Source: Candidatus Woesearchaeota archaeon (lineage in GTDB: Archaea > Nanobdellota > Nanobdellia > Woesearchaeales > JAFCFN01). From it: a stretch of 63,167 bases of DNA. The position numbers were made by a program, and so were the translations under genes. The stretch lies in contig JAFCFN010000004.1 in the NCBI GenBank assembly GCA_017608625.1, forward strand, positions 1-63,167. Reading direction: 5' to 3'. The notes under the pieces are model-generated. The model was not told where the DNA came from and searched no databases. It worked only from the letters and a program-made list of their open reading frames with translations. Below are positions 8,623 through 39,798 of this stretch, in pieces (positions within the stretch are counted from its first letter, which is position 1; each line of letters opens with the position of its first letter).

Positions 8623-8735
8623 GTTGTATAATACAACACTTTTCTTTAATTTACTCTTATTTGTTATATCATACAACTAAGTTGTATCATACAACAGAAA
8701 GATTTAAATATCAGTTATTTGTTGTATGATATAAA
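8623..8735 (+). promoter_or_regulatory. Operator/promoter region: four copies of 15-bp palindrome GTTGTATNATACAAC around TATA box TTTAAATA
   Basis: 8623-8637 GTTGTATAATACAAC; 8663-8677 GTTATATCATACAAC; 8681-8695 GTTGTATCATACAAC; 8721-8735 GTTGTATGATATAAA; TATA 8703-8710; ATG at 8736. Confidence 0.8.
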
Positions 8736-9080
8736 ATGAGTGAAACTGAAGATATTTTAATTAATAATGCTAAAGAATACTTTAAAAATGCGCTAGAAGC
8801 TCAAACTAAAAACGAGTTTAATACAGCAGTCACATTATTTTTTAAAGTAATGACTGCATTGTGTGATTTGTTTATTCTTAGAAAAGAAGGCAGTATACCA
8901 ACTTCCTATGCAAATCGATTCAGAATATTGGAAGCAAGATACAAGGAATTATATGATCTGATTGATAAGGATTTTCCTTTTTATCAGGAAAGTTATAAAA
9001 CAAGACTTACTAAAGAGGTTTCTTTGATTTTATTTGAAGATGTTAAAAAAATATCAAAAATCGTTGGGATTGATCTGTAA
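8736..9080 (+). CDS. HEPN-domain protein (HepT-like), lacks the catalytic RX4-6H motif
   Basis: All-helical; LINNAKEYFKNALEAQTKNEFNTAVTLFFKV..CDLFI typical HEPN N-terminus; followed by an MNT gene. Confidence 0.7.
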   Translation: MSETEDILINNAKEYFKNALEAQTKNEFNTAVTLFFKVMTALCDLFILRKEGSIPTSYANRFRILEARYKELYDLIDKDFPFYQESYKTRLTKEVSLILFEDVKKISKIVGIDL

Positions 9081-9621
9081 TAAATTTAAAAGAAAACACA
9101 AGGATATCATAGATATAGTTCTTTATGGTTCTTTGGTAAAGGGAAAAATAAAATCAAGAGATATTGATATAATGGTTATTTTTTTGAATACTGAACTAAA
9201 AACACGTCTAGAAATTATACAAGAGCTTAAAAGACAATTACGCGTTTCTTTAGAAAATGTTGATGTAAAGTCCATGAATTTTTCTGATTTTTTTGATCCT
9301 ACTTTTCTTGCGAGACAGGGAATTTTAATCGAAGGAATAAGCTTGATCGATAAAAAGAGCTTAGCAGAAAAATTAGGATTTAAAAGTTATGCCATATTTA
9401 CTTATAATCTTGCTAATTTATCCCATACTGAGAAAATAAAATTCAATTATGCATTAAATGGTAGAAAAGGGACAGGTGTTTTACAAAATTTAAAAGGAAT
9501 GTCCTTGGGAAAAGGGGTGGTTCAAGTACCAATCACAACTAGTTTAACTTTTGAAGAATTTTTAGAAAAATGGAACATTCAATATAAAATTAAGCACGCC
9601 CTGATATCTTTTTATGTTTGA
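9034..9621 (+). CDS. MNT-type nucleotidyltransferase with extra C-terminal 'YALxGRxG' domain
   Basis: VLYGSLVKGKIKSRDIDIMV (GS-x9-DxD) pol-beta-like NTase motif; C-terminal about 75 aa resemble ORF 38482-38778. Confidence 0.75.
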   Translation: MKMLKKYQKSLGLICNKFKRKHKDIIDIVLYGSLVKGKIKSRDIDIMVIFLNTELKTRLEIIQELKRQLRVSLENVDVKSMNFSDFFDPTFLARQGILIEGISLIDKKSLAEKLGFKSYAIFTYNLANLSHTEKIKFNYALNGRKGTGVLQNLKGMSLGKGVVQVPITTSLTFEEFLEKWNIQYKIKHALISFYV

Positions 9622-29584: not shown

Positions 29585-32500
29585 TTATTTATACACTTCT
29601 TTTAGTTTATTAAGCAGATGTTGTTTATATTCTTTTGTTTTTTTGATTTGTTTTTTAGTCTTTTCATCCAGTTTTTCTATATCTTTAATTATGTCTTTTA
29701 CAAATTTCTTTGCTTCTTTTTCAGCCAGCAGTTCCTTCCTTTCTTCTATTTTCTTAACTATTTCTTTTTTAACATTAATATCTTTTTCTATTTCTTTTTC
29801 AGCCTTTTTATAGTCTTCTATTTTTCCAATTCTTTCTTTAAGTTTCTTTATTGTTTCGGTTTCTATTTTATTTATATCTTTAACAGCTTTTTTGAATTCT
29901 TTTAGATCTCTTTCTTTTTTGTTTAGAACGGCTAGTTCGAGTTTCTCTTTGAAAGTAAGTGATTCTTCTTTTTCTGACAATTCCTCTTTTTTAGGCAATT
30001 TTACAAATTGTCTTTCTATTACTTTTTCCTTTTCTTTTAACTCTTCAATCTTTTCCTTCTTTTTAAATAAATCTTTTTTAATGCCAGTTAATGCATTTTC
30101 TAACTTTTTCAGCAGTTTTGTATTCTCAACTATACCAAATGTTGAAGCAGTTATTTTTTTATCCAACACTTCACACTCTTTTTGAATATTTTTTAGCTCT
30201 TCTTTTTCTTTATCAAGAAGTCTTATCTTAGACTGTTCTCTTAAAGCTAATACTCTTTCTTTATTTTTTAGTTTCCTTATTTTGTTTATGATTAACTTAA
30301 TATTTAAATCAAGGTTTTTCAATTTCTTTTCCAAGTTCTTTAAAGGAGCGTCTGCTTTCTTTTTTAGCGCATCAGGAATAACTACCCCTGCTCTTTCAAA
30401 TCTTGAGAATTTAGCTTCTTTTCTTTTGTAAAGTTCTTTGAGTAATTTAACAAATCCTTGTTTCTTGATTTGGAAATTTTGTTCATCTTTTTCAAATTCT
30501 TTTCTTACATTAGATAAAGTTGATTTTTGACTTGAAAGTTTTTCTATAGTAGTTTGCAGTAAAGCAATTCTTTCATTGGTTATAGCTTTTACAAGCTCTT
30601 TTTCTTTTTTAATAGATTCTAGCTTTTTGAGATGCTCTTTATAATCATTGAGTAAGTCCTGAGTTGCTGCAATTTTGGTTTTTATATCCTTAGATAATTC
30701 TTCATCTTTTTTGATTAATGTTAGCAATTTGTTTTCTTTGTTCTTCAACTTTCTTTCTTTTGTTTCTATTTTTCTTATATCCTCTGTCATATCTTCTATC
30801 GCTTGCTTTCTCTCATTAAGCTTTTTCAGATCTTTTTCTAATTTTGTTATCTCGTTTTCTAATCTTGTAACTTTTTCTTCATCTTTTTTCTTTATTGTTT
30901 CTAAACTAATGACAAACTCTTTACCTTCTTTTTCAAGCTCTCTTGTTTTTGCTATTTTTTCTTTTAACTCTTCAATCTTCTCTTTTTCTTTTACTAAATC
31001 TTTAGGTTTGATTGTTTTCTCTATTTCTATCTTTAGTTTGCCAGGGAACTTTTCAATTTTATCGGCCATCTTATGCCCTACTCTTATAATTTCTTCTTTA
31101 TGTCTTTGTACAGTTACTATTATAGTAATAGATCCAGAGATGCAGACAAGTGTTATTAGTATCCATAAGATATTATTTTCTATAGTATCGACCACAGAAT
31201 TTACTGCTGAGGAAATCCAAGCTATTAATTTAGGTCTTTCTTCTATGTGGGGTTTTGGGATCTCTTCCATAGGATGAATTTCTTCCGGCAGTGTTGGAGC
31301 TGTATAATTACAACTCCGTATTTCTGTTTTATTACCTAGACCACATGCTATATCTTTACATATTCTTGTTTGGGTTCCATTTTCTGTACACTCAGACCAC
31401 TCTGTGCAGTTCCATTTTATAGAACATCCTGCTTTGCCTGCTCTGCTAGGTGCAGGAGCAGCACAATCAACTGGGCAATTATTATAATCTTCTCCACTAT
31501 CACATATTCCGTCTCCGCAATAACTTTCTTGTTTTATTGAGAATCCTGATAAGTTTGTAAGTGTTATTGTTAAGGTGTCTTCTGTTTTATCTTGCACCAC
31601 ATTACTTAAATATTGCCATGTTCCTCCACATTCTTGTTGACTAAAATTCCAGTCAGCACACTTATACAAGCTAAGATAGTTTTCATTTGTAAATGCTATA
31701 TTGCTGTAATTGAAAGTTAGTGTGACATTGCTTTGGTTAAACTCACTTTCAACAGCGTATGTTGCTAAATAACCTGTTACAGGAGTTTGCTTTTTGTCTA
31801 TTCTAAGTGTTTTATTGTTGTATTTTGTTAGATTAACATTATTTAATTTTATTTTTATTGAACTATTGTATGCTTCGAAAAACAGATCATAATTCAAAAT
31901 AGGTTGTGAGCTATTCAGTGTTTCATTAAATTGATAATTGCTTACTTCTTTTTCTGTTCCAGTAATGTAAAGAGTGAGATCTACTGGAACATTATTTCCA
32001 TTACTATCTTTCACAGTTATTGTAAACTCGAATCCTGTATTTGATATGAAATAATCTGTTATGTTTACTAGATTTCCTAAAGTGTCATTAGCATAGAAAG
32101 TTATATCATATCTGCCATTAATTGTTGTTGAATAATTTAACGGGAATGATGTTATTGAAGCAGTTGTTGAGTCTGGCAGTGTTATTGTTGCCCATAGAGT
32201 TGATATATTTGAGTTATCAGTCGCATTTGCATCTATTGTTATATTCTCTCCAGTCATAACAGCAGCGGGATATATTGAGTAATTTATAGTTGGAGGAGTT
32301 ATCTCTGTTCTAATTTTATAATTATAATATTCTGTGCTATTCCAGTTATTGTATAAATCACTAGCAAGCCATCTATAATTGTATTCTCCTACTGAAAGAT
32401 TTGTAAATGTGTAATAATACACATCTCCTGATTTTGTTGTTACAGTAAAATTCTGGCCATTAAATTCTAGAATTACTTTGCTTATGTTTACATTATCTGT

Positions 32501-35500
32501 CCATGTAGCATAAAGTGTAAAGAATGTTTCATTTAGTAAAGCAGGAGATTCAGGATCTGCTCTTATGTTAAAGTAAACAGGAGCAGATAAGTCAGCTATA
32601 TTAAAGTATGTTTTTTGTGTATTATTTAGATTGTTTGATGTATCATTTACAATTATTGTTATGTTATATCTTCCTAGATAAGTTGTGTCTGTGAAGAGCT
32701 CTTCATATAAACCAGAGCTTGAGTTATAGCTTAGTTCTAGTAATTGATCGTTGTCAGCCCATTCAATATTTGCCAAAACACTATCAATAGCAGTTTCATC
32801 AGATGCATTTACCTTTATAGCGATTGGAGTATTATAATTATAAGTTACATTAGTAAGTGGAGCTGTTATAATCACACTTGGAGCAGTTATATCTATAACA
32901 TCAAAGAAATCAGTTTCTGTGTTGTTCGTATTATTGGATGCATCTCTTGCAATTATTCTTATGTAATATCTTCCTGCTGGATCTTGATTAGTAGGAGTAT
33001 AAGTATAATACCATACGTTATTGTCACTTTTTATCATGTCAAATGTCAGTGTTATGTTGTCCGGCTTTGTTATATTTAGTTTTACAGTCACATTTGTAGC
33101 GTCTATTACATTTACAGTTATATTAGTTGTTTGAGTTTGATTAATTACTCCAGGCGTTGTTGTTATGTTTATTACGGAAGGATTTTGTGTATCTTGCACT
33201 GTTATAAGGAGTGTTTTTGAGCTGGATGAATAGTTTCGCGTAGTAGGATAAACTGCTGTTATATTATAAACACCTAGTTCAGTGTATGTTGTTGTATTTT
33301 CTAATGGGCTTGTACCATTATTAATCAAAGCTCCATCTTGATATAGTTCTAGATAACCTGCTGGAGGAGTAATTGTTTCTGCCTTAATTGCTACAGCTGT
33401 GTTTATTTCTATTGTTTTATTTTCTGTAAGATTATCTAGTGTTAAATTGATCGAAGAGTTTGCTTTGTTTATCATATACTCTGACAGAGGTGTACTATTC
33501 CAATTATTGTAAACGTCGTTTGCATACCATTTATATGAATAATTTCCAGCAGGAAGGGATTGTATAGTGAAATAATACTTGTCTCCAGATTTTGTAGTTA
33601 CTGTGTTATTTTCTCCATTGAGTTCAAATAGTACAGAGTTAACTTTTATATTATCTGTCCATGTGCAATAGAAAATATAGGATTGATTAGGGCTATATGT
33701 TGTTGGTGAAACTGGATCAGTAGTTATATTACTCCAAGCTGGAGGGGAGATATCATTTATTTCAAAACTTGTTTTTTCTGTATCGTTTACATTATTGGAT
33801 GTATCATTGGCTATTATTGTTATATTGTATTCTGTTATTATTGACGTTTCATCAAAAACATTCTCATAAAATAAAGAAGTTGAATTATAGTTTAGTTTTA
33901 GTATTCTGTTATTTCCATCCCAACTTACATTTGCTAGAACACTGTCTACTTGTGTTTCATCTGTTGCATTAACTTTGATAGGTACTACAGAATTATAATC
34001 ATAAATTGTATTTTCAACAGGTTCTATAATCTCCACAACAGGTTTTGTTATGTCTAATACTGTAAAGTTTATAGTTTCTGTATCATTTATATTATTAGAT
34101 GTGTCATTTGCAATAACTCTTACGTAATATATTCCTGCTTTGTTTTGATTGTTTGCGGTATATTCATAATAGTATACATCATTGATGCCTTCTAACATTT
34201 CATAACTTTCAGTTATATTATCTGCACGGGTTATGTTTACAATTACTTTGCTAATATCTGTGTTGTCTGTTACTATGACTGTTATATTTGTTGTTTGAGT
34301 CTGGTTTATTGTAGCAGGAGTAGCAGTTAAGTTAGTTACAGAAGGATTTGTATTGTCCTCTACTTCTATGAAATGGGTTTCATAGCTAGGAGTATAATTT
34401 CTGCTTCCATTATAAATAGCAGTTATATTGTAGATTCCTGTTTCATTATATATCATAAAAATTGTTAGTGGAGATGAGCCATTAGCTATTTTTACACCAT
34501 TTTGGTATAACTCGATATAGCCTGTAGAAGGAATTATTAAGGTTGCTGTTATGTTTACTTGTAAACCAGCTTCTATTGTGATATTTTCATCATAATTGTT
34601 TAGTGTTAAGTTAATTAATGAAATCATTTTTGGATTTACTGTAACATTATCTGTTAGCTTGATTAGTTCTGTTCCTATTGAATCACATGTAACATTATAA
34701 TCAAATGTTCCGTTTTCTGCAAATGACCTGTTATATTCATATAACTCTGTTGTTGTGTTGAATATCATTATTGCACTTGAATCTGCAAAATCAATTGTAC
34801 AAATTGCAGCAAGTATGGGATTTCCATTTACAACTTTTGTATAATTAGCAAAGAATTTTATTTGTTCATCTACATATTTTGTTTGATTGGCATAAGGCAT
34901 ATCTTTATCAGTTTCATCCCAGATTACTAGTTTTGCATTTCCTGCTGTTGTAAAAGATGTAAAGTGACTTACATTAAATATCGCTGTGCCATTTACATAA
35001 CTTACATTTGAACAAATTGAAGCATTACAATACTCTCCATTTATATATACGTCAGGAGCATCCTCCCATCCGAGATTTCTGATGTAGAGTGTAGCAGATG
35101 AATTAAAACTAGAATGTAGCCCAGTGATTGTTACATTATTATAAGAAAGTTTTACTGCTGTATCAAAATCCTGATCAACTGCATTAACACATTCATGCCA
35201 TATTACCATGTCTGTATCAGGATTGTCAAGTATGGCTGTACTGTTACATACATTACTTAAATCAGGTAAAGAAGCCCAATCTGTTGTGTTTCCAGAGAAA
35301 TTACTGTAGTTTGGTACAGCCTCTCTGTTCACTTCTACAATTCTTGTTAAAGAGATATTCTTGTGTCCAAGCGAATCATAAACTTCACAATACCAGGAAT
35401 AGTTTCCGTCAGAGAGGTTCAATAATGTAAATTCTGCAGTTGTGTTTGTTCCAGATATATTGACTGTTTTGTTTAAGGTTCCTTCAAAATAAAAGGAGAT

Positions 35501-38485
35501 ATTTTTAAGGTTAAGATTGTCAATTACACTACAGTTAAAGTAAATATTTCCATCTCCATCAACTGCATTATCATTTGGTGAGAGAGAAGTAAATGAAGGA
35601 GGAGTTGTATCAACAGTAAAGCTTCTTGTTTCACTTGTATTTATATTATTTGCATCATCCCAACAAGTTATATTCCAGTAGTGTGTGCCATCACTAAATC
35701 CTGAGACTGTATAGTTCGTTGCTGTAGCATTATGACTTATTATATTGCTAGCATTGACAATACCATCAATAGTTAAATTGCAACGCAAACCTACATCAAG
35801 ATTATCTGTAGCTGTCCAATTAAAGTTAATTTCAGTAGAGCTTGTATTAAATGTATCCAATGGGGAATTTATAGTTATTGTTGGCTTTGTATTGTCTATT
35901 ATGAAATAGTATGCCATTAAATCAAAGCTGCATCTATCATAGATATCACAAGCCTCTATTTTTATCTTGTATTTTCCGTCAGTAGCTGATGTTGTATCAT
36001 ATATCTGAAATTCTGTTCCTTCTGGCACAGAACTGTTAATTGTCTCAAGAAAACCATTATCATAAGTCATTAAACTGACATTATAATCAAAAGGATCTCC
36101 ATTAGGATCATGCGACGCAAGCCAGGTTATATTTAAAATTCCTTTATAAACTTTGAAATATTCTGGATTAGTGATTTGCGGTTTTGTTGGTGGATCCCTG
36201 CCTTGTTCCCATATATCAGTCTGTAGAGTGGAGTATGCATTATTTCCTAAGCTGTCATTTGCCCAAACCTTATACTGGAACTGCTGATTGTTAGCAAAGT
36301 CAAACCAGTGAATATGTGCATCTGCCTCCCAATTATTTTCTAAGTTCCATGTTGTTCCATTATCAGCAGAATAATAAGTGTGCCCTGTTCCAAGTGTTAT
36401 GTTTTGCCTTCTTAACTCCCATGCAGCACTTATATTACTTACATCACGCGCTTCCAATATTATTGACATGTTTGGAGTAGCTTTAACACTTAATATTGTT
36501 CCATTAGAATTTATTGAGAAACGCAAGAATTTCCTTCCATAAGGCAAGGTTGGATCAAATGGTTCAAGCCCTCCAATATACACACAATTTGCATTTGTTA
36601 AAGGATCTCCTGCAGTATAACTAGAGTTACAATAATATACATCAAGATCATCTACAGTTCCTGTTTTATTGACAACATATACCTCAAGTCTATAGCTTAC
36701 ATTTTCAGCAACATAAAGTCCTGTGAAATTTATTTTTACAGAACGATTTACATAAATATCTTCGTAAGTACTGTTAAACTTATCAAGATCTTTAATAAAT
36801 AGATTGTATTTGCTTGGCCTATAAAACCAGTGAGATATATTTGCACACCATCTTCCATTTTGAAGACTGCCTCCTATTAAACTCATGTTAACATAACCAG
36901 GATCTTCTGGAATAATTCCAGCTTGCTCAGCTGTGCCACTGTTGTTATAGTAAAGTTTAGCTTCTGTTATGTTTGTTACACCTGTTATATTTACCTTTAT
37001 CTGGATATCTCCTCCACTACTAGCATTAAGATCAGAAGGAATTTGCTCCCAGTCAGAGAAAGAAGGGTATATTGAAATACCTCTAATTTGAATGTCGTCA
37101 ACTTTACACTCTTCATTTGGCACACTGCTATAACATCTAAACCTTATTTTAAAGTTAGGATTGTTATTAGCATCAGGTGTTAAACTATTGTTATCAAAAG
37201 TATAAGCAGCAGTATTTGTTCCTGTGATATTAAGCACATTAATCCAAGTTGTGCCATTATACCAATCTGCTCTTAGGTACTCTCCTGCATCAAGTCCATC
37301 AGTATCATACCAAAAACTAAAGGTTATATTCTTATAATTGGCTGTGCTAATGCTTGTTTCAATTATACTTTCACCATCTGTATTTTCAGTTTCTATATAA
37401 TAAATTCCAGCATAAGGATCATCTGTTGCAATTGCCCAAGCTCTACCTATTCCTGAAGTAGTCCAATTGTTTGTTGCTAAAGAAGCAGATTCCCAGTCTT
37501 CAAAGAATGTTCCACTGAAATTTGACAAAGGCGCAGCATCATGGATATAATCAAATTCCAGATATGTTATTGGTCCTTGGGTGCTTATAATTTTAAAATC
37601 AAACTGATTTGTTTGGTAAGAGAGATTATTTAGAATTATGTCTTGCCATTCTCCTGAAGAGTTAAATACTTTGGATTTTCCTAATAATGGGGAAGTAGTA
37701 TTAACATGATAGATTTCAAACCAAGTATTTTTAAGTTCTTGATTCCTTACATAAACATTAATAATGCTTCCATTTGTTAGATTGTGAGCAAATGTAACTC
37801 TTATAAACTCATTTGCATAAATTGGTTCTGACCAATTATCATCTTTGCGCTCAACTTCAGCAAATATGTCAGAAATGAATGAATAATTACTATCTAAATG
37901 TTCAGCAGCAGTAATATTAATCTCAGCAAATCCTGGATCCTCTGCTGTTAAAACAAAAGTATATTCTTGTCCAGGTATAATATTCATTAACTTAGTCCAG
38001 CTGCCGTGACAGCTTTGTTCTGTAAAATTCCAGTCTTTACATTTATATAACATGGTTCCTTTTGCTACTGCAGTTACAGTCGCATTATCAAAGACTATAT
38101 TGGTTGGGTCAATGGCATAAACCTCAACAAATTTTCCTTCTTTTTCATTTGGAACATCATCTATACCAATTTCAATTGTTTCATTGTATGTTAAATTATT
38201 GAATTCTATTTTCTTTACAGGGGTTGATTTTGGAATTACCTCAACCTTTTTTCCTATAATATTAATCTCTGCATAAATTGAATTATTCTTGCTATCTTTT
38301 AATTTATAATCAGCCATGGCTAAGATAGAAGCATTAGTTATATTAGTTCCATTTACTTTATAGACTGCTTCGCCTGCTTGAACAAAAATATCATTAATAA
38401 TAGGAACAGCTATTATTTGTGGCAATAATATTATAGCAACTAATGCAAAGATACAGATTCCAATTATTGCTTTTTTGTTGTTCAT
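29585..38485 (-). CDS. 2966-aa secreted/membrane protein: signal peptide, many Ig-like/cadherin-like repeats, TSP1-like segment, TM helix, about 500-aa cytoplasmic coiled coil
   Basis: Signal peptide AIIGICIFALVAIILLPQIIAVP; repeated TTNITVxVxDNT.. NDTSNN units; WNCTEWSECTENGTQTRICK; TM ILWILITLVCISGSITIIVTV; Lys/Glu heptads to C-terminus. Confidence 0.9.
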   Translation of the reverse strand: MNNKKAIIGICIFALVAIILLPQIIAVPIINDIFVQAGEAVYKVNGTNITNASILAMADYKLKDSKNNSIYAEINIIGKKVEVIPKSTPVKKIEFNNLTYNETIEIGIDDVPNEKEGKFVEVYAIDPTNIVFDNATVTAVAKGTMLYKCKDWNFTEQSCHGSWTKLMNIIPGQEYTFVLTAEDPGFAEINITAAEHLDSNYSFISDIFAEVERKDDNWSEPIYANEFIRVTFAHNLTNGSIINVYVRNQELKNTWFEIYHVNTTSPLLGKSKVFNSSGEWQDIILNNLSYQTNQFDFKIISTQGPITYLEFDYIHDAAPLSNFSGTFFEDWESASLATNNWTTSGIGRAWAIATDDPYAGIYYIETENTDGESIIETSISTANYKNITFSFWYDTDGLDAGEYLRADWYNGTTWINVLNITGTNTAAYTFDNNSLTPDANNNPNFKIRFRCYSSVPNEECKVDDIQIRGISIYPSFSDWEQIPSDLNASSGGDIQIKVNITGVTNITEAKLYYNNSGTAEQAGIIPEDPGYVNMSLIGGSLQNGRWCANISHWFYRPSKYNLFIKDLDKFNSTYEDIYVNRSVKINFTGLYVAENVSYRLEVYVVNKTGTVDDLDVYYCNSSYTAGDPLTNANCVYIGGLEPFDPTLPYGRKFLRFSINSNGTILSVKATPNMSIILEARDVSNISAAWELRRQNITLGTGHTYYSADNGTTWNLENNWEADAHIHWFDFANNQQFQYKVWANDSLGNNAYSTLQTDIWEQGRDPPTKPQITNPEYFKVYKGILNITWLASHDPNGDPFDYNVSLMTYDNGFLETINSSVPEGTEFQIYDTTSATDGKYKIKIEACDIYDRCSFDLMAYYFIIDNTKPTITINSPLDTFNTSSTEINFNWTATDNLDVGLRCNLTIDGIVNASNIISHNATATNYTVSGFSDGTHYWNITCWDDANNINTSETRSFTVDTTPPSFTSLSPNDNAVDGDGNIYFNCSVIDNLNLKNISFYFEGTLNKTVNISGTNTTAEFTLLNLSDGNYSWYCEVYDSLGHKNISLTRIVEVNREAVPNYSNFSGNTTDWASLPDLSNVCNSTAILDNPDTDMVIWHECVNAVDQDFDTAVKLSYNNVTITGLHSSFNSSATLYIRNLGWEDAPDVYINGEYCNASICSNVSYVNGTAIFNVSHFTSFTTAGNAKLVIWDETDKDMPYANQTKYVDEQIKFFANYTKVVNGNPILAAICTIDFADSSAIMIFNTTTELYEYNRSFAENGTFDYNVTCDSIGTELIKLTDNVTVNPKMISLINLTLNNYDENITIEAGLQVNITATLIIPSTGYIELYQNGVKIANGSSPLTIFMIYNETGIYNITAIYNGSRNYTPSYETHFIEVEDNTNPSVTNLTATPATINQTQTTNITVIVTDNTDISKVIVNITRADNITESYEMLEGINDVYYYEYTANNQNKAGIYYVRVIANDTSNNINDTETINFTVLDITKPVVEIIEPVENTIYDYNSVVPIKVNATDETQVDSVLANVSWDGNNRILKLNYNSTSLFYENVFDETSIITEYNITIIANDTSNNVNDTEKTSFEINDISPPAWSNITTDPVSPTTYSPNQSYIFYCTWTDNIKVNSVLFELNGENNTVTTKSGDKYYFTIQSLPAGNYSYKWYANDVYNNWNSTPLSEYMINKANSSINLTLDNLTENKTIEINTAVAIKAETITPPAGYLELYQDGALINNGTSPLENTTTYTELGVYNITAVYPTTRNYSSSSKTLLITVQDTQNPSVINITTTPGVINQTQTTNITVNVIDATNVTVKLNITKPDNITLTFDMIKSDNNVWYYTYTPTNQDPAGRYYIRIIARDASNNTNNTETDFFDVIDITAPSVIITAPLTNVTYNYNTPIAIKVNASDETAIDSVLANIEWADNDQLLELSYNSSSGLYEELFTDTTYLGRYNITIIVNDTSNNLNNTQKTYFNIADLSAPVYFNIRADPESPALLNETFFTLYATWTDNVNISKVILEFNGQNFTVTTKSGDVYYYTFTNLSVGEYNYRWLASDLYNNWNSTEYYNYKIRTEITPPTINYSIYPAAVMTGENITIDANATDNSNISTLWATITLPDSTTASITSFPLNYSTTINGRYDITFYANDTLGNLVNITDYFISNTGFEFTITVKDSNGNNVPVDLTLYITGTEKEVSNYQFNETLNSSQPILNYDLFFEAYNSSIKIKLNNVNLTKYNNKTLRIDKKQTPVTGYLATYAVESEFNQSNVTLTFNYSNIAFTNENYLSLYKCADWNFSQQECGGTWQYLSNVVQDKTEDTLTITLTNLSGFSIKQESYCGDGICDSGEDYNNCPVDCAAPAPSRAGKAGCSIKWNCTEWSECTENGTQTRICKDIACGLGNKTEIRSCNYTAPTLPEEIHPMEEIPKPHIEERPKLIAWISSAVNSVVDTIENNILWILITLVCISGSITIIVTVQRHKEEIIRVGHKMADKIEKFPGKLKIEIEKTIKPKDLVKEKEKIEELKEKIAKTRELEKEGKEFVISLETIKKKDEEKVTRLENEITKLEKDLKKLNERKQAIEDMTEDIRKIETKERKLKNKENKLLTLIKKDEELSKDIKTKIAATQDLLNDYKEHLKKLESIKKEKELVKAITNERIALLQTTIEKLSSQKSTLSNVRKEFEKDEQNFQIKKQGFVKLLKELYKRKEAKFSRFERAGVVIPDALKKKADAPLKNLEKKLKNLDLNIKLIINKIRKLKNKERVLALREQSKIRLLDKEKEELKNIQKECEVLDKKITASTFGIVENTKLLKKLENALTGIKKDLFKKKEKIEELKEKEKVIERQFVKLPKKEELSEKEESLTFKEKLELAVLNKKERDLKEFKKAVKDINKIETETIKKLKERIGKIEDYKKAEKEIEKDINVKKEIVKKIEERKELLAEKEAKKFVKDIIKDIEKLDEKTKKQIKKTKEYKQHLLNKLKEVYK

Positions 38486-38786: not shown

Positions 38787-38864
38787 TAATGTTAAATAGA
38801 TTAACATTACTGCTATATAAAGGTTTTGGTGTTATATTTATTAACTTGTTAAATAGGTTAACAA
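38787..38864 (-). promoter_or_regulatory. Two palindromes flanking a minus-strand TATA box
   Basis: 38787-38809 TAATGTTAA-ATAGA-TTAACATTA; 38846-38864 TTGTTAA-ATAGG-TTAACAA; TATA (TTATATA, minus strand) 38814-38820 between them. Confidence 0.75.
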
Positions 38865-38959: not shown

Positions 38960-38996
38960 AGTTTTGTTTGCAACTAATCTGATTAAAAACAAAACT
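38960..38996 (-). terminator. Hairpin at the 3' end of CDS 38995-39798
   Basis: AGTTTTGTTT / AAACAAAACT inverted repeat. Confidence 0.4.
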
Positions 38997-39798
38997 AAGA
39001 TGTAGAATTCAGAACAGATAAAATGGCAGATTCTATTGGATCATCCAATCCAATTAATTCTTTTTCATCTATTGTTACAACATAATTCAATGTTGTTGCA
39101 ACTTGAGTGATTGTTTCAATTTCACCATTTATAATATTTATCTCATAAATTCGTTTTATTTTATCTTTGTCCTGTATTTGAAGTAAAAATTTTTCATTTT
39201 TTGTTTTTTCTAAATTAATTTTTTTGTTAATTCTATTTACATATTCAGATAATATTTTTTCGTCTGGATATTTCACCCCTTCAAGTTTTTTAATTGCAAG
39301 AGAGGTAACTTCTGTTATTTTTTCAACTATTCCCAGAATATCCTCATCTTTATTTTTGGTTATATTGGAAATTATTGAATGATACTCTTCAAGTGTATCT
39401 TTTACTAGTGTTTTATCATTTTCTTTTATCTTATCCCAGTTGTTAGAAATCTTTTCAACAAGCCACTTATAATCATCTAAAACATCTTTCATCTCATCAA
39501 AATATTCTTCTCTATTCTTGTTTTTGTCAAGTTCTTCTAGTTCACTAACCCTCTCATTAGCTATGTCCATGATTTTCTCTGTTTTTTCCTCAGCATTTGT
39601 TAAGGATACGTCAACCCTATCTTTTATTTTGTCTATGTACCAAAACATTGATGTTGGAGGAATTGTTAGTGTTAGTTGATTTGATATAAGTGCAATAATG
39701 ATTAACACCAACACAATAAATGCGATAGCAGGAGATCTTACCATAATAAGATACAGCTCCTCTCTTTTTAAATAATTTTTGATAATCCTCATAAACAA
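38995..39798 (-). CDS. Hypothetical membrane-anchored protein (DUF5667-like helical ectodomain)
   Basis: N-terminal TM then long helical region. Confidence 0.55.
   Translation of the reverse strand: MFMRIIKNYLKREELYLIMVRSPAIAFIVLVLIIIALISNQLTLTIPPTSMFWYIDKIKDRVDVSLTNAEEKTEKIMDIANERVSELEELDKNKNREEYFDEMKDVLDDYKWLVEKISNNWDKIKENDKTLVKDTLEEYHSIISNITKNKDEDILGIVEKITEVTSLAIKKLEGVKYPDEKILSEYVNRINKKINLEKTKNEKFLLQIQDKDKIKRIYEINIINGEIETITQVATTLNYVVTIDEKELIGLDDPIESAILSVLNSTS

Follow-up and report, generated by a model that had tools for sequence, protein, structure and literature searches.

Two operons in the window, the whole stretch of 63,167 nucleotides analyzed here, encode proteins that share a domain of about 80 amino acids (Table 1). 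In the first operon, the domain forms the C terminus of an MNT nucleotidyltransferase, and the gene of a small helical partner protein comes first. In the second, on the opposite strand, the domain makes up a stand-alone protein, and its gene is followed by that of a giant secreted surface protein. The initial annotation had proposed that the domain is a DNA-binding autoregulator, fused to the MNT protein in one case and used alone in the other. The MNT gene may start at 9034 or at 9040, and homologues suggest the ATG at 9040 as the true start. The 98-aa protein may likewise begin at an inner ATG (MPAKKEDK), as in the congener L062. The product of its upstream neighbor (window positions 38995-39798) is 267 aa long and matches DUF5667 (E 6e-10).

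Table 1. Genes, domain and predicted promoter elements of the two operons; operator positions are relative to the first start codon
Feature	Coordinates	Strand	Basis
Operator GTTGTATAATACAAC, -113	8623..8637	+	Motif search
Operator GTTATATCATACAAC, -73, 40 bp beyond the GTTGTATAATACAAC site	8663..8677	+	Motif search
Operator GTTGTATCATACAAC, -55, adjoins BRE/TATA element	8681..8695	+	Motif search
Core promoter of 25 bp, flanked by operators; BRE-like AGAAAGA followed by TATA-like TTTAAATA (8703-8710)	8696..8720	+	Sequence; gap kept across loci
Degenerate operator GTTGTATGATATAAA, -15, adjoins ATG	8721..8735	+	Motif search
Partner gene, 114-aa helical protein, first in MNT operon, overlaps MNT gene	8736..9080	+	HEPN-like position, no RX4-6H motif
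MNT nucleotidyltransferase plus new domain, 195 aa	9034..9621	+	Polbeta PF18765, GS..DID motif, Foldseek
Shared C-terminal domain, about 80 aa, YALxGRxG	9376..9618	+	BLASTP, genome search, alignment, structure model
Giant secreted surface protein of 2966 aa with Ig-like repeats and a coiled coil	29585..38485	-	Big_7 E 4e-15
Stand-alone domain protein, 98 aa	38482..38778	-	BLASTP, structure model
Operator GTTAATCTATTTAAC, -27, 40 bp beyond the GTTAATAAATATAAC site	38791..38805	-	Motif search
Core promoter of 25 bp, flanked by operators, with TATA-like TTTATATA (38821-38814)	38806..38830	-	Sequence
Imperfect operator GTTAATAAATATAAC, -67, adjoins BRE	38831..38845	-	Motif search
Operator GTTAACCTATTTAAC, -84	38848..38862	-	Motif search

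A domain common to fused and stand-alone proteins

Residues 116-192 of the MNT protein aligned with residues 20-97 of the 98-aa protein over 78 residues with one gap (35% identical, 56% similar; BLASTP E = 1e-13). This alignment, together with a further copy elsewhere in the genome, bears out the proposal that the two proteins have a domain in common. A search of the whole genome holding the window (646 kb, 14 contigs) gave three copies and no others. Two of them are those of the window (E 1e-51 and 4e-10), and the third lies inside a second MNT protein (contig C3:1153-1383, E 1e-9). Since a profile recovered all three copies, each with E < 1e-30, the similarity is far beyond chance. A scan of genome contigs with one protein gave three loci and no more. 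The domain was present in 49 of 100 genomes of the order (at least one copy each, the window's own genome counted), and across the phylum a 27-sequence profile picked it up in 131 of 284 genomes. One domain-bearing contig, L004, is labelled Aenigmatarchaeota, outside the phylum, and may be a binning error. In the domain alignment, the invariant core is Y-x3-GR-x3-G, within KxRFxYALKGRxGxxG. There are two main architectures, one of about 190 aa with an N-terminal nucleotidyltransferase and one of about 80-100 aa in which the domain stands alone. Two copies per protein (162-271 aa) were seen in L166, L167 and L168, followed by a coiled-coil-like gene of 275-294 aa, and L161 has two neighboring genes for stand-alone copies, one copy in each.

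The domain had no confident match in Pfam, NCBIfam, PADLOC or PDB sequences. None of the 27 aligned domains matched HTH, RHH, AbrB or Lrp families above chance in Pfam, and the domain of the window proteins matched no DNA-binding family in NCBIfam or PADLOC. A literature search, mostly without subscription journals, found no description of it. AlphaFold2 predicted a beta-alpha-(beta)beta-alpha-beta arrangement for the 98-aa protein, with a core at about 90 pLDDT from five sequences, and the same order of secondary structure for the MNT C terminus. The possibility that the two regions adopt unrelated folds, which would have refuted the initial annotation, therefore does not apply. The two models nevertheless come from nearly one shared small alignment and are not independent, because the runs share most sequences. 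Foldseek gave no confident PDB match for the domain (best E 0.022); weak ferredoxin-like matches included Cas2 (5zyf and 3exc, E 0.08-0.09, TM 0.55 normalised by target), and one domain member matched PaaX_M at E 0.21 in Pfam. On the models, the domain is probably ferredoxin-like (beta-alpha-beta-beta-alpha-beta) and not a classical DNA-binding fold. This predicted order fits PaaX/Cas2-like and other ferredoxin-like domains; the matches to them are weak, and none, in sequence or in structure, is significant. In PaaX, DNA is read by a separate winged helix.

The nucleotidyltransferase part of the MNT protein scored 39.5 bits against Polbeta PF18765 in Pfam (cut-off 26.9) and 27.2 bits against NCBIfam MntA, under the cut-off of 60. 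Its best Foldseek match was MntA (7aer), and its intact GS..DID motif meets the criterion for an MNT-type GS-x-DxD active site. Fused genes are usually preceded by a helical partner gene encoding 105-120 aa, with an overlap of about 30-80 bp. Across 38 partners, K40, H61, R64-F65, Y86 and Y90 are conserved; no RX4-6H motif is conserved among them, and the window partner cannot carry one because it has no histidine at all. Pfam HEPN models matched neither the window partner nor three homologues. A partner profile found weak similarity to PaREP1-type HEPN proteins (2jpu/2q00, E 0.024), and its TPR matches were stronger. With no Pfam HEPN match, no RX4-6H motif and only weak PaREP1-type similarity, the partner should not yet be called a HEPN toxin. 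Its identification as a HEPN RNase is not supported and the toxin label is unproven, so the "antitoxin-like" character first ascribed to the MNT protein is not established.

The MNT operon is like the type VII HEPN/MNT systems (SO_3165/SO_3166 and HepT/MntA) in its intact GS..DxD MNT protein, small helical partner and overlapping genes. It is unlike them in its extra C-terminal domain, in a partner without conserved RX4-6H, in tandem operators at exact spacing and in gene order: in most MNT-HEPN pairs the MNT gene comes first (PMC3710099), whereas here the partner gene does.

In some homologues with the length of the fused form (L048, L050, L052, L056 and L076), the nucleotidyltransferase motifs are degenerate. 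The gene sits after a small secreted-protein-like gene in L048, L052 and L056 and precedes a surface-type gene of more than 900 aa in L048, L050, L052 and L076. In L180, L183 and L184, degenerate MNT-domain genes lie directly before a gene of 755-762 aa that, by eye, resembles the AAA ATPase Cdc48; genomes of genus g165 hold many matches in the same length class.

Palindromes at a fixed distance around the core promoter

In both window operons, a BRE/TATA-like element lies between two palindromic sites 40 bp apart. The sequence TGTTAANCTATTTAACA occurs exactly at both 38790-38806 and 38847-38863. Sites of the GTTGTATNATACAAC type with at most 3 mismatches matched the window 12 times against 4.6 expected, a number reached by 0 of 100 shuffles. 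For the degenerate operator next to the ATG of the partner gene, a better-kept site is found at the same position in homologues, e.g., L036 and L042. The initial annotation had placed both domain genes directly behind palindromes around a TATA box. In the MNT operon, the palindromes instead precede the partner gene. It had also taken the two palindromes to be different; both are 15-bp GTT-N9-AAC sequences and thus variants of one class.

Palindromes of this class recur upstream of homologues, as the initial annotation had suggested should be checked; a lack of enrichment, one outcome that would have refuted it, is thereby excluded. With the window left aside, GTT-N9-AAC lies upstream of 22 of the 39 fused loci, where shuffled sequences gave a mean of 2.4 and at most 7, and of 12 of the 24 stand-alone loci, where they gave a mean of 0.95 and at most 4. 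Among 109 control regions, taken in front of other genes at these loci, 3 had it. Related clades carry GTT-N8-AAC or GTT-N7-AAC instead. The GTT..AAC form first showed up in a search for the best inverted repeat and was then tested directly. That search itself, judged against shuffles, was too blunt in AT-rich DNA (p <= 0.05 for 9 of 25 upstream regions of stand-alone genes and for 5 of 40 regions of fused ones) and was set aside. Because the form was partly noticed in the first-set data, a hold-out of 40 further loci from other genomes, fetched later, is the cleaner test. N7-9 palindromes were present in 29 of the 38 hold-out loci with usable upstream sequence (shuffle mean 3.3, maximum 9) and in 7 of 109 controls. 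L173 in the hold-out seems to be identical in sequence to L005 from the first set, and without it the count is 28 of 37. Loci bearing operators are related by descent, so these counts are not fully independent. Members without a recognisable GTT..AAC palindrome include L049, L103 and L184. By eye only, TTCTTAC..GTAAGAA and TCTGTTAT..ATAACAGA palindromes were seen in distant clades (L088, L095 and L104; L090, L093 and L102); TGTGATA.. palindromes were also seen by eye in distant domain clades, without statistics.

The distance between neighboring sites is constant. Their centers are 40 bp apart for N9, 39 bp for N8 and 38 bp for N7 palindromes, which amounts to the same 25-bp gap from AAC to the next GTT in each case. 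AAC-N25-GTT occurred 61 times in the first set against 1-16 times at other gaps (15 to 40), and 30 times in the hold-out against 0-9; in controls it occurred 5 times against 2-8. The commonest, gene-proximal pair brackets a BRE/TATA-like element (e.g., cgaaaagtttaaata). The inner site often ends at the base that precedes the ATG. The commonest site positions are -55 and -15. Extra upstream copies stand at -73, -95 or -113, giving up to four or five sites.

The inner palindrome adjoins the start codon, as would a hairpin acting by attenuation or translational control, and the domain might then bind RNA. We consider this highly improbable. The outer sites lie upstream of the TATA-like box and so would not be transcribed, which makes a role at the RNA level unlikely; the spacing is fixed at the DNA level, and there are as many as four or five sites. 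Because matching palindromes flank the promoter at one exact spacing, the YALxGRxG domain is very probably, as far as sequence can tell, a DNA-binding switch for its own operon in these tiny symbiont-like (DPANN) archaea.

The candidate reader of the operators

Operator class, defined as the spacer plus two half-site bases, was mapped on an unrooted maximum-likelihood tree of 76 domains. Its 12 states required 14 changes, whereas 300 shuffles averaged 35.8 and never fell below 31. The tree rests on few columns, has many weak forks and includes related rows that are not independent, so the result is read as a pattern and not as a p-value. One clade with N8-GTTAA operators holds three fused and four stand-alone proteins, and a clade with N7-GTTGA operators includes fused, degenerate and stand-alone forms. 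Paralogues within one genome also differ: those of the window's genome have operators of the N9-GTTGT, N9-GTTAA and N8-GTTAA types, and genome G062 has four types. The domain is the common factor of operator class across fused and stand-alone forms and across paralogues, and it is therefore the best candidate for the DNA reader. Palindromic operators at the protein's own promoter, with a specificity that shifts with the protein, are what is expected of an autoregulator.

Two other readers can be considered. The first is the nucleotidyltransferase part itself, which may be the reader in Shewanella. There, the MNT antitoxin SO_3165, a bare MNT protein in which no DNA-binding domain is recognised, binds its own promoter and represses it, and autoregulation through promoter palindromes has been proposed for it (PMC4621449). 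Stand-alone proteins, however, have no MNT part and carry the same operator class as their fused relatives, which leaves an MNT reader with very little support here. The second is some other cellular protein, with the domain serving for protein contact, oligomerisation or substrate delivery to the MNT part. Ferredoxin-like domains often merely dimerise, and neither the predicted fold, which resembles them, nor any known DNA-binding family match marks the domain as a reader. Operator class nevertheless tracks the domain tree, is common to fused and stand-alone forms and differs between paralogues of one genome; a separate reader would need to have co-evolved with each paralogue, and we regard this explanation as improbable.

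Surface-protein operons and possible targets in trans

The 98-aa gene and the 2966-aa surface-protein gene share an ATGA overlap, and this arrangement is common. At 27 of 41 stand-alone loci the next ORF encodes at least 450 aa, with ends that mostly overlap, often by ATGA. A large follower with a hydrophobic N-terminal segment was found at 25 of 41 stand-alone loci and for 6 of 253 control ORFs (Fisher p = 5e-20, loci treated as independent).

Operator enrichment, spacing, the domain tree and the surface-gene followers all support the proposal of a DNA-binding autoregulator in fused and stand-alone form; there are no binding data. Taken together, the observations are best explained, with a probability of roughly 0.8 in the absence of binding or expression data, by a dimeric DNA-binding module that represses its own operon by bracketing the promoter. 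Domain homology, operator enrichment, spacing, co-variation with clade and operon structure are read directly from the compared loci; contact of the domain with DNA, dimerisation and repression are inferred. Most likely, a symmetric dimer of the domain reads the 13-15 bp palindrome GTT-N7..9-AAC, whose inner bases are clade-specific. Dimers flanking the BRE/TATA element, with the constant 25-bp gap between them (AAC-N25-GTT), would obstruct TBP, TFB or RNA polymerase and thereby repress the operon that encodes the domain. In MNT operons, the domain would confer its own promoter control on the nucleotidyltransferase, while at stand-alone genes the same operator logic would control the translationally coupled gene of a giant surface protein.

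Partial parallels exist. The self-repressing MNT antitoxin of Shewanella is a precedent for autoregulation of this kind. The bifunctional antitoxin regulator VapB14 of Sulfolobus acts on surface structures and exists without a toxin (PMC10127717). The YALxGRxG domain is like VapB14 as a toxin-antitoxin-linked DNA-binding protein that would act beyond its own locus. It is unlike VapB14 in being an unrelated protein, in which one domain occurs in both architectures across the phylum with a conserved operator grammar. Among archaeal autorepressors, YtrASa reportedly uses palindromes close to the core promoter. It belongs to another protein family, and the operons described here add tandem sites to a core promoter enclosed between two palindromes with a constant 25-bp gap.

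Few specific regulators are known in DPANN archaea, and many of their genes are unassigned. Here, a domain without a family model is paired with an operator code that can be read from sequence (GTT-N7..9-AAC, inner bases that differ by clade, core promoter within a 25-bp bracket) over much of the phylum. The giant surface proteins are candidates for host contact, and their regulation becomes testable in vitro and predictable from sequence. The data also suggest that a toxin-antitoxin-like autoregulatory module could be reused, through loss of the enzyme, as a regulator of surface proteins, although the unrooted tree does not show the direction. The paired clades of operators and regulators form a natural data set on DNA reading by a probably ferredoxin-like domain.

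Regulation in trans was suggested at one further operon. In the 646-kb genome, the MNT-operon motif occurred exactly only upstream of its own operon. The stand-alone operator TGTTAACCTATTTAACA also formed a 40-bp pair before the operon of ribosomal protein L3, one copy exact and one with 2 mismatches. The congener G001 carries two exact TGTTAACCTATTTAACA copies at the corresponding L3 position, again spaced by 40 bp; the two genomes have the operator copies in common but not the DNA that separates them. L3 is also preceded by similar sites in G051 and G032, both genomes with stand-alone proteins. In one systematic count, this target held up in 3 of 5 readable stand-alone genomes and 0 of 8 others. 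A strict exact-pair pattern was not found across 190 genomes of the class, as expected because operators vary outside the genus. The evidence for the rpL3 operon as a trans target is thus suggestive only, and in this genus the stand-alone protein would probably control it in addition to its own operon. A leader of more than 200 bp separates the conserved operator pair from the L3 operon (L111:8950-9300; L145); Rfam returned no RNA match in it.

The L3 sites do not surround the likely TATA-like element but lie upstream of it, which would be compatible with activation as well. The domain could accordingly bind its operators as an activator or a dual regulator instead of a simple repressor. We think this unlikely, since the commonest pair at the domain's own operons straddles the BRE/TATA element, and a dimer on the inner site, between TATA and start codon, should block initiation. 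Repression thus remains the preferred reading for these operons. A broader scenario is conceivable, though we hold it only tentatively and would not expect it to be right in full: an MNT-linked autoregulator would have been domesticated across the DPANN phylum for giant surface-protein operons, this genus would have tied in the main ribosomal-protein operon so that growth and attachment to partner cells form one switch, and in fused forms the MNT part or the partner may gate binding.

Other copies of the stand-alone operator were also seen. An exact copy in the window's genome (G000 C3:78520-78536, L112) lies next to a tyrosine recombinase gene, in the intergenic stretch between convergent genes, with no obvious promoter. 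In G082 (L146:2679-2811), three exact copies overlap the start of a lipoprotein-like gene, whose product, by eye, may contain a phospholipase D-like domain.
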